DNA of 64,000 nucleotides from Pseudomonadota bacterium. Lineage in GTDB: Bacteria; Bdellovibrionota; UBA1018; CAIMNF01. The notes below the pieces were generated by a model. The model was given only the letters and a program-made list of their open reading frames with translations. It was not told where the DNA came from and did no database searches. Shown one piece after another: positions 2,879-6,301 of the stretch. The first letter of the stretch is position 1; the number at the start of each line of letters is the position of its first letter. The position numbers and the translations under genes are program-made. The stretch lies in the NCBI GenBank assembly GCA_027486675.1, contig JAIXOQ010000004.1, positions 62,001 to 126,000 of the forward strand. The letters run 5' to 3'.

Positions 2879-3310
2879 ATTCCGTTTGCTGTAAGACGCA
2901 GAGTCTCTTTTTCTGAGGAAATCGCCGATTCTTACACTGAAGGTGCGTCTTTGCAGAAATTAGCGCGGCTACATCAGGTCTCAAAGAACACTGCACGTAG
3001 AACATTATAAGACCAAGGTATTGCCATTCGTCACAGTAAAGAATGGCAGGACGGATTCTTTCGCGGGACACCGCCCTATGGATTTGTAGCCATAGACGGG
3101 AAGCTCATGGAGTGTCCGCGTGAACAACAAAACCTAAAGATCATCCTGAAACTCTGGCATGCAGGCAGCACATTCGCGGACATCACGCGCCACATGAATG
3201 ACCACAAGATCCCGCCACGCCGGGCACGCGAGTGGCACTACATGACCATTAGATCGATCTTGAAATACCAAAGTGAGCAGAACCAAAAACCAAAGGAGAC
3301 TGAACTATGA
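2879..3310 (+). pseudogene. Decayed serine recombinase C-terminal region
   Basis: One reading frame runs through an HTH-like part (LQKLARLHQVSKNTARRTL), an in-frame TAA at 3008-3010, then TPPYGFVAIDGKLMECPREQ and ITRHMNDHKIPPRRAREWHY, ending SILKYQ and a Lys-rich tail. The second part matches the 'recombinase' domain that follows the catalytic domain in large serine recombinases. The catalytic N-terminal domain with its active serine is absent. Upstream sequence is the hairpin repeat. One nonsense codon and loss of the catalytic part make this a relic. A second copy of its tail lies at 1325-1426. Confidence 0.7.
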
Positions 3311-4813: not shown

Positions 4814-5116
4814 TCAACTCACTTTTAACTCCAAATTCGGATTAATTTTTTCATACAGACTAATGAGCCTGTCTGTTGAAAATTCATCCAGTCGATTGCG
4901 CAGAATCTTACTCACTTTGGCTTCATCAATTCCAAGAATTTTTGACATCTCTCGCTGAGTAATTTTTTTTACCATGAGGTACACAACAAATTTTTGCTGT
5001 AGATCAAACCTAAGCTTCTCAAGCGGAGTTGGGTTCAATGGAGGTGCAAGCGTACCCTCCACTTTTTCGAGCTTCTTTAAGACCTTGTTAATTTCAGCAC
5101 GGCTAGGAAATCCCAT
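4814..5116 (-). CDS. XRE-family HTH antitoxin-like protein
   Basis: A 100-residue protein with an HTH of the HTH_37/XRE type in its C-terminal half: KKITQREMSKILGIDEAKVS, then KILRNRLDEFSTDRLISLYE. The LrnrLdeFStdrLisL pattern is typical of antitoxins encoded just after a RelE/HigB-like toxin. The N-terminal half is a charged helical region for partner binding. It begins two bases after the stop of the upstream toxin-like gene, so the two are one transcript. It probably represses from the inverted repeat at 5430-5445. Confidence 0.75.
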   Translation of the reverse strand: MGFPSRAEINKVLKKLEKVEGTLAPPLNPTPLEKLRFDLQQKFVVYLMVKKITQREMSKILGIDEAKVSKILRNRLDEFSTDRLISLYEKINPNLELKVS

Positions 5117-5118
5117 AA

Positions 5119-5409
5119 CTACCTCCGATAAGCGTTCACAACGCCAATATAAAACTGATCATCTTCAAGGAGCCAGATGAGCTTGTACCGCTTCCCATTC
5201 AATTCCATCTTGTCTTCGACAAAATAGGAGTAGCTCGTATCCACATCATCTGGAACCATCACCCGTCCATCGAGCTGCCTCACTAAAGCGAGGATGATTT
5301 CGTCCGAAACGCTGTCAGCATGCTTTTCTTCGTAATGCGGCGAAATAATCACTTTCTTGATCACCCGAAAATTAAAGCGAATGCTAATGTCATACTCGCG
5401 GAGCTGCAC
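5119..5409 (-). CDS. Putative type II toxin (DUF4258/RelE-like)
   Basis: A 96-residue protein. Its layout is IIKSPH-like [18 protein letters not shown], a central helix and a strand pair [20 protein letters not shown] followed by [17 protein letters not shown]. It resembles small RelE-fold or DUF4258-type toxins, and the tightly coupled HTH gene downstream fits a toxin-first type II pair. I am not certain of the family. It starts with GTG, with aagaag a few bases upstream and a taaaat -10-like box before that. It is part of the tRNA-Arg island cargo. Confidence 0.6.
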
Positions 5410-5513: not shown

Positions 5514-5708
5514 TGGCGCGCCCGCCGCGATTCATGTCGCCCATCCATGGGCGCCACCCTCCGGGCGACACTCGTTTCACTCGCGCCGTGCAAAAATGCC
5601 ATCATGGCATTTTTGTCATGTCGGCACATCCTGTGCCTCGCCCTTAGGGGCGATGCTCATGAATTCGCATCGTGCGATTCGGCCCTCATGGCCGAATCGT
5701 CGAACACG
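5514..5708. repeat. tRNA-tail plus hairpin-array unit, copy B
   Basis: It starts with tggcgcgcccgccgcgattc (5514-5533), an exact 20-bp copy of the 3' end of the tRNA-Arg at 6225, CCA included. The hairpin array follows: gcgcccat/atgggcgc variant, a degenerate cgacac hairpin, aaaaatgcca-tca-tggcattttt, ggcac-atcct-gtgcc and gattcggcc-ctcat-ggccgaatc. It ends with tcgaacacg (5700-5708), which resumes the tRNA T-arm. It is closely similar to copy A up to the last hairpin, which has a different stem. Confidence 0.85.
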
Positions 5709-5769
5709 TTAACTTCGACGTGTTCTCGTCGATGACAGGGCACGCCAAACAGTACCTACGCCTCAGAGG

Positions 5770-5887
5770 TACCCCTCTTATTTAATACTTCTTCCCAGTG
5801 AGGCTAAAAGAGCGGAGCAGGATGCGGAGCGATAGATCCCATGGATGGATCTGCCTCACTGGGAAGAAGTATTAAATAAGAGGGGTA
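5770..5887. repeat. Long inverted-repeat element 1 (35-bp perfect arms)
   Basis: The left arm 5770-5804 and right arm 5853-5887 are perfectly complementary over 35 bp, with a 48-base loop. The loop begins taaaagagcg, contains gcgatag, and ends in a small hairpin with the apex ccatggatgg. Loop landmarks are shared with element 2, whereas arm bases differ in a paired fashion. No reading frame of note. Confidence 0.95.
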
Positions 5888-5909
5888 TTTATGGGGCATG
5901 TTTTAGAAG

Positions 5910-6020
5910 TGGCGCGCCCGCCGCGATTCATGGACGCCATCGTGGCGTCCACCCTTCGGGCGACACTCGTTACACTCGCGTCGTGCGTTTTGGCCATCAT
6001 GGCCAAAACGTCGAACACGG
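5910..6020. repeat. tRNA-tail plus hairpin-array unit, copy C
   Basis: It starts with the same exact 20-bp tRNA-Arg tail (5910-5929). The array is shorter: ggacgcca-tcg-tggcgtcc, the cgacac hairpin, then gttttggcca-tca-tggccaaaac, followed by tcgaacacgg (6011-6020). Compared with copies A and B it looks like a deletion between two cgtgc motifs that removed the aaaaatg hairpin and its neighbours. The following bases to 6081 match copy A and lead into inverted-repeat element 2. Confidence 0.85.
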
Positions 6021-6081: not shown

Positions 6082-6201
6082 ATACCTATCCCCATACTTC
6101 TTTCCCCAAGTAAGGCTAAAAGAGCGTCGCACGATGCGACGCGATAGCACCCATGGATGGGTGGCCGCCTTACTTGGGGAAAGAAGTATGGGGATAGGTA
6201 T
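6082..6201. repeat. Long inverted-repeat element 2 (35-bp perfect arms)
   Basis: Arms 6082-6116 and 6167-6201 are perfectly complementary over 35 bp; the loop is 50 bases. The loop begins taaaagagcg, carries an 8-bp hairpin gcgtcgca-cga-tgcgacgc, then gatag and a second hairpin caccca-tgga-tgggtg. Single-stranded, it would form a Y-shaped three-way junction. It ends 23 bp from the 3' end of the tRNA-Arg gene. Confidence 0.95.
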
Positions 6202-6224: not shown

Positions 6225-6301
6225 TGGCGCGCCCGCCGCGATTCGAACACGGGACCCCCTGATTAGAAATCAGGTGCTCTATCCAGCTGAGCTACGGGCG
6301 C
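6225..6301 (-). tRNA. tRNA-Arg (anticodon UCU)
   Basis: A full cloverleaf can be drawn: acceptor gcgcccg/cgggcgc, D arm gctc/gagc, anticodon stem cctga/tcagg around loop tttctaa (anticodon TCT), T stem ccgtg/cgcgg with ttcgaat loop, discriminator G and an encoded CCA. Total is 77 nt. Its last 20 nt are repeated exactly at 5910 and 5514 and partly at 2511, so it is the attachment-type anchor of the island. It is divergent from the lipoprotein gene at 6375. Confidence 0.97.

Follow-up and report, generated by a model that had tools for sequence, protein, structure and literature searches.

How can a single locus hold hairpins whose stems are unrelated in sequence and yet perfectly paired, inside a frame that stays the same from copy to copy? 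The question is raised by an array in the window (the whole stretch of 64,000 nucleotides analysed here), which the first-pass annotation took for a modular system that swaps or generates paired stems while keeping apex and borders. We found four intact frames, at 5587-5617 (stem aaaaatg), 5671-5701 (gattcgg), 5982-6012 (gttttgg) and 2577-2607 (aaaaatg again), and a fifth at 2660-2680 that is without its right arm. The central observation, a constant frame around different, perfectly paired stems, is borne out by these intact frames and by the covariation described below. The apex is constant overall, with a slight deviation in the gattcgg stem (CCCTCATGG). The borders too are constant, but they comprise more than the CGTGC and GTC motifs: a four-hairpin module is enclosed by the two halves of a copied tRNA T-arm, and these halves are the true borders. 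The genome-wide pattern search that had been suggested (CGTGC-N6-9-CCAT-N1-3-ATGG, 2.7-Mb genome) gave 4 forward and 0 reverse matches, all within the array, and the backward control of the same pattern gave 0.

The array follows an intact tRNA-Arg(tct) gene (6225-6301, minus strand; called by ARAGORN, Rfam tRNA 66.3 bits) and is best read on the strand of that gene. It starts with two units, A and B, with copy-to-copy lengths of 315 and 396 bp, each terminated by a 20-base direct repeat of the tRNA-Arg 3' end including CCA. Unit A comprises a long T-shaped hairpin with 34-bp arms and a constant two-hairpin tip (6083-6201), module A at the T-loop position of a tRNA copy (5924-6020, minus; 86.7 bits with the model R1 introduced below) and the closing tail copy (5910-5929, minus; 15/15 bases). 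Unit B comprises a long T-shaped hairpin with 45-bp arms (5758-5899), modules B1 (5612-5709, minus; 80.9 bits) and B2 (5528-5625, minus; R1 82.2 bits), joined head to tail at the junction GACATGA, and its own tail copy (5514-5533, minus; 15/15). The span 5534-5699, to which the first-pass annotation was attached, corresponds to modules B2 and B1. A third segment of 3 kb carries two further modules, C2 (2602-2698, minus; R1 42.6 bits), in which the right arm of the first helix is lost, and C1 (2519-2615, minus; R1 84 bits), then at its end a truncated tRNA-Arg tail copy (2511-2524, minus). The window thus has five modules behind a single tRNA-Arg, one of them broken. Each module consists of four hairpins that occupy the T-loop of an incompletely copied tRNA 3' half, in the order TGTTCGA, hairpins, TGAATCGCGG. 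The hairpins first noticed are all the first helix of a module, H1, read on the tRNA-Arg strand (minus: 5986-6010 in module A, gttttgg; 5675-5699 in B1, gattcgg; 5591-5615 in B2 and 2581-2605 in C1, both aaaaatg). Folding of two window modules is better than that of dinucleotide shuffles (z -4.25 and -4.40). It had also been asked whether stems match other loci as targets; the H1 stems had no match in the rest of their own genome outside the array up to E 10, so that no targets are seen at that sensitivity.

The 315- and 396-bp units contain no credible gene. Two toxin-antitoxin-like gene pairs lie in or adjoin the array (4814-5409, minus, and 1524-2094, plus), as judged from HTH_37 and addiction-module antidote matches; relatives of the pair at 4814-5409 adjoin modules in genome G036 (L096/L139). 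A 90-base direct repeat (89%; 1328-1417 and 3164-3253) resembles recombinase gene fragments by eye.

The long elements at 5758-5899 and 6083-6201 form a separate hairpin family with a constant tip and variable arms. The tip reads TAAAAGAGCG, then a hairpin mostly with a GGA loop, a CGATAG-like link and a second such hairpin; members besides the two in the window are L008, L011, L012, L013 and L031. In the window's own genome, long hairpins stand behind tRNA-Arg, Lys and Thr and at two other intergenic places, and G048, of the same order, has at least five copies (L031, L036, L040, L042, L044). With TwoAYGGAY RNA (RF01731) this family shares two tip hairpins, many with GGA loops. The nearest matches to that model, L125 (40.6 bits) and L034 (34.7 bits), are below its cut-off of 43; L034 and L125 lie in a long trailer hairpin on the strand opposite to tmRNA and tRNA-Val, and the model had no match in the window.

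The modules are not confined to this array. When 97 genomes were searched at the DNA level, 10 gave a match, the window's own among them; in eight of the nine others the module stands after tRNA-Arg, Gln, Asn, Met, Gly or tmRNA and is usually followed by the neighbouring gene's own tail copy, and in the ninth, G048, the long hairpin alone was matched. Scanning 84,980 species genomes for the pattern produced 25 matches, six of them with paired arms, in five Oligoflexia/Bdellovibrionales MAG contigs (two from one MAG) and one Lysobacteraceae MAG, where the unit is behind tRNA-Ser (L059); the arms of the other 19 are unpaired and we take these matches as chance. From an alignment of 20 modules, A1, which excludes E. 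coli, we built the covariance model R1. In the phylum it had matches in 76 of 368 genomes (E 0.01; no more than 11 candidates per genome were scored), and in the proteobacterial family to which the Lysobacteraceae MAG belongs, in 29 of 150 (E 1e-4); 17 unrelated control genomes gave nothing below 1e-3 (best E 0.0016). Constant borders and apex with differing paired stems therefore occur in two phyla, and the array is not a case of a few recent local duplicates, the circumstance the first-pass annotation had named as fatal to its idea. Plasmid and phage records searched with blastn had no module, and two module patterns had no match in IMG/VR. Weaker R1 matches in some groups sit away from tRNAs. 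In three modules (L216, L223, L225) the start is exactly the TGA stop codon of a long sense ORF rather than a tRNA T-loop; the modules of L223 are in tandem.

The frame around the module is specific to the local tRNA. We counted this on 110 R1 hits in 95 sources, requiring that a tRNA or tmRNA lie upstream on the same strand at no more than 700 nt; 61 hits had one, and the remaining 49, some of them at contig ends, were excluded. At least 13 of 15 bases of the tail copy agree with the local tRNA or tmRNA gene in 32 of the 61 modules (a set in which L032 and L113, being the same place, are counted twice). Comparisons with other tRNA species reached this level in 1 of 1216 cases, and the local gene outscores every other tRNA species in 43 of 61; by the 13/15 measure, about half of the tail copies are thus degenerate. 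The 5' half of the T-stem also follows its own tRNA: at least 4 of 5 bases agree in 44 of the 51 modules that retain TTC, versus 119/1552 for other tRNAs. The hosts comprise 20 tRNA species of 13 amino acids, with tmRNA in two genomes. Loci L029 and L011 suggested a general zigzag tail copy (forward, inverted, forward), which we rejected given the rarity of the inverted copy: it reaches 14/19 or better at 5 of 57 loci (other tRNAs, 6 of 1133 comparisons), and the inverted T-arm 7-mer is found in 8 of 51 (other tRNAs, 9/1552).

Relatedness among modules is mixed. The nearest neighbour is at another locus of the same genome for 14 of 79 modules, where 3.5 are expected (maximum of 12 in 2000 shuffles), and in another genome, sometimes at the same tRNA, for the other 65; likeness triplets favour the same genome in 255 cases and the same tRNA in 99, with 48 ties. 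The elements have thus in part been passed on in place and in part been copied from one tRNA gene to another.

What keeps the stems perfect? In A1, 99.0% of H1 cells are paired, and all 10 of the H1 pairs show two-sided changes, with no one-sided cells; the covariation score of the whole structure is 0.549, compared with 0.126 when shuffled. The H1 helices of 99 distinct modules contain 1001 Watson-Crick pairs, 2 G-U pairs and 7 mismatches, counts to be read with the caution that the rows are related and the hits were picked by a model trained on such stems. The frequency of G-U, 2 in 1003 pairs, compares with 32 in 561 for tRNA acceptor and T stems and 66 in 762 for trailer hairpins, which were scored permissively. 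On the model alignment G-U occupies 4 of 1035 paired cells in H1 and 5 of 467 in H4; with H4 low as well, our initial notion of G-U scarcity as a trait of H1 only was too strong. Flips from A-U to U-A are common (one pair has 23 U-A against 1 C-G), and such a flip is not achievable by a single G-U step. Two-sided changes are found likewise in the proteobacterial modules, and the H1 stems group around a few related forms. The scarcity of G-U in H1 fits a joint rewriting of both arms, for which template switching offers a one-step origin, as put forward in PMC8794818. Compensatory change together with template-switch correction accounts for the stems, with no need of special machinery. Of the idea that stems are swapped or generated as pairs, the data thus support the paired change and lend no support to a dedicated system.

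We propose, at a probability of about 0.58, that the array consists of an RtT-type RNA element (RtT being the tyrT repeat RNA of E. coli, compared below) that is co-transcribed with tRNAs and whose stems are kept perfect partly by template switching. What we observe directly, and what the proposal starts from, is the anatomy and the fact that it recurs, together with flanks specific to the tRNA and stems that covary. An intact tRNA gene is followed by one or more units, each starting with a terminator or long hairpin and continuing through the T-arm 5' half, the four-hairpin module, and the T-arm 3' half with acceptor end, both T-arm halves being copies from the same upstream tRNA. By analogy with reports on E. 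coli RtT, the tRNA transcript may include the units, which would then be set free as a small structured RNA, in which the T-arm copy would close the fold and might attract tRNA-processing enzymes. The hairpins are probably kept perfect by selection, and by template switching: replication would copy one arm onto the other, changing both sides of a selected hairpin at once. Spread among tRNA genes may have occurred by copying or conversion. Several observations count against this proposal. The very low G-U content is unusual for an RNA helix. Some modules are away from tRNAs. The window has no RtT match, nor have 20 other loci, no match anywhere attains the Rfam cut-off, and R1 scores the E. coli repeats at only 14.1-15.7 bits. 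The long H1 with its ANGAN loop is also missing from E. coli.

A possible objection is that the module is a non-coding mobile DNA element, recognised as single-stranded DNA, which inserts after YGA; its targets would be the TTCGA of the T-loop, a TGA stop codon and the ATGA or GTGA at the end of another module, and at tRNA genes the tail would be duplicated so that the tRNA survives. We consider this rather unlikely. It would account for the excess of same-genome neighbours across different tRNAs, for head-to-tail modules joined at TGA (unit B of the window, L039, L223), for the three modules that have a stop codon precisely at their start and for an H1 nearly free of G-U. Against it, we found no enzyme, the window's own genome being without a Y1 transposase match; many copies are closest to those at the same tRNA in related species, most nearest neighbours being in other genomes; and a simple tail target duplication does not give the tRNA-specific 5' T-stem half. 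A bolder form, also unlikely, would make of the module a mobile DNA hairpin free of genes, able to enter almost any tRNA gene at its T-loop and rebuilding the tail at each entry, with stems rewritten as perfect pairs at the DNA level and E. coli RtT as one old branch.

The tail copies might instead be att sites of tRNA-targeting integrases, and the hairpins remnants of attP arms. Tandem tail copies, and a 3-kb segment of the array that bears genes, toxin-antitoxin genes among them, are in keeping with such scars of integrative elements, but the gene-less short units, the same module behind 20 tRNA species and the absence of the module from the phage and plasmid records searched make this explanation quite improbable.

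REP/BIME-type palindromes mobilised by a RAYT (Y1) transposase are likewise dispersed, palindromic and non-coding, some at gene 3' ends, and PMC2965389 ties rtT-like elements of enterobacteria to BIMEs and attenuation. The modules differ from them in their tRNA-specific flanks and in the distribution of the enzyme: Y1_Tnp (PF01797) has no match in the window's own genome (G000; 0 at E 1e-5) or in six family relatives that carry modules (G001, G002, G003, G008, G009, G011), and is present in all four family members without a module hit, so that we give this origin very little credence. That an active system swaps or generates stems within a fixed frame is just as hard to credit, for although stem changes are two-sided with intermediates almost absent, we found no donor stem, target, recombinase or transposase, the stems cluster around few related forms, and general template switching suffices (PMC8794818).

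The RtT-like plan ranges more widely than its one database entry would lead one to expect. That it recurs in a second phylum, after 20 tRNA species and tmRNA, provides a comparative data set on tail function, one that also lets one ask how tails reach new tRNA genes, and the H1 stems lend themselves to testing template switching as a keeper of hairpins.

To our knowledge RtT has been an orphan since 1991, known mainly from E. coli and its relatives. Its description by Bosl and Kersten in that year is cited in PMC4986893 and PMC2965389; the former also cites a role in the stringent response and states that Northern blots of A. pleuropneumoniae show RtT-family RNAs near tRNA genes. Other papers mention a tandem-GA motif in RtT (PMC7657543), a 175-bp tandem-repeat difference in rtT RNA among compared Salmonella genomes (PMC2658671) and, in an archaeon, a different palindrome behind tRNA genes (PMC5217627). 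The literature we searched had no description of such elements outside gamma-proteobacteria.

By Rfam's own measure the modules stay outside the family. The RtT model (RF00391, gathering cut-off 45 bits) found nothing in the window up to E 10, and 20 other loci, searched up to E 0.5, were equally without a match. (Among all Rfam matches to the window, whether at the gathering score or at E 10, tRNA was the only meaningful one, microRNA names being chance matches to palindromes.) None of 97 relatives scored above 45 bits, while the E. coli control did; seven genomes matched below the cut-off, with an ARAGORN tRNA at L071 alone of the seven loci. The model aligned over its full length, always below the cut-off, at L227 (42.0 bits), L212 (38.9 and 38.8), L219 (38.6), L209 (34.5), L228 (33.8), L059 (33.7, where Rfam first named RtT) and L071 (28.2). 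Conversely, R1 recovered the four E. coli repeats at a level that is suggestive in the 1.8 kb searched and weak at the scale of a genome (14.1-15.7 bits, E 2e-4 to 7e-4; unfiltered).

The anatomy is nevertheless shared. The E. coli tyrT repeats and rttR likewise stand behind a tRNA as tandem units, each ending in a copy of the tRNA 3' end; our modules lie 3' of their tRNA on the same strand, close with a copy of that tRNA's 3' end, and run, as RtT does, from a T-arm 5' half through hairpins that include CCCGAAGGG to a T-arm 3' half. They differ in having a long H1 with an ANGAN loop, which E. coli RtT lacks, in following other tRNAs and tmRNA, in occurring in another phylum, and in Rfam scores that are below the cut-off or absent. 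With anatomy shared and Rfam scores short of the cut-off, we class them as RtT-type by anatomy and not as RtT members by Rfam's rule. The array is best explained as a new variant, with a long H1, of the RtT plan, which is itself known and poorly understood.
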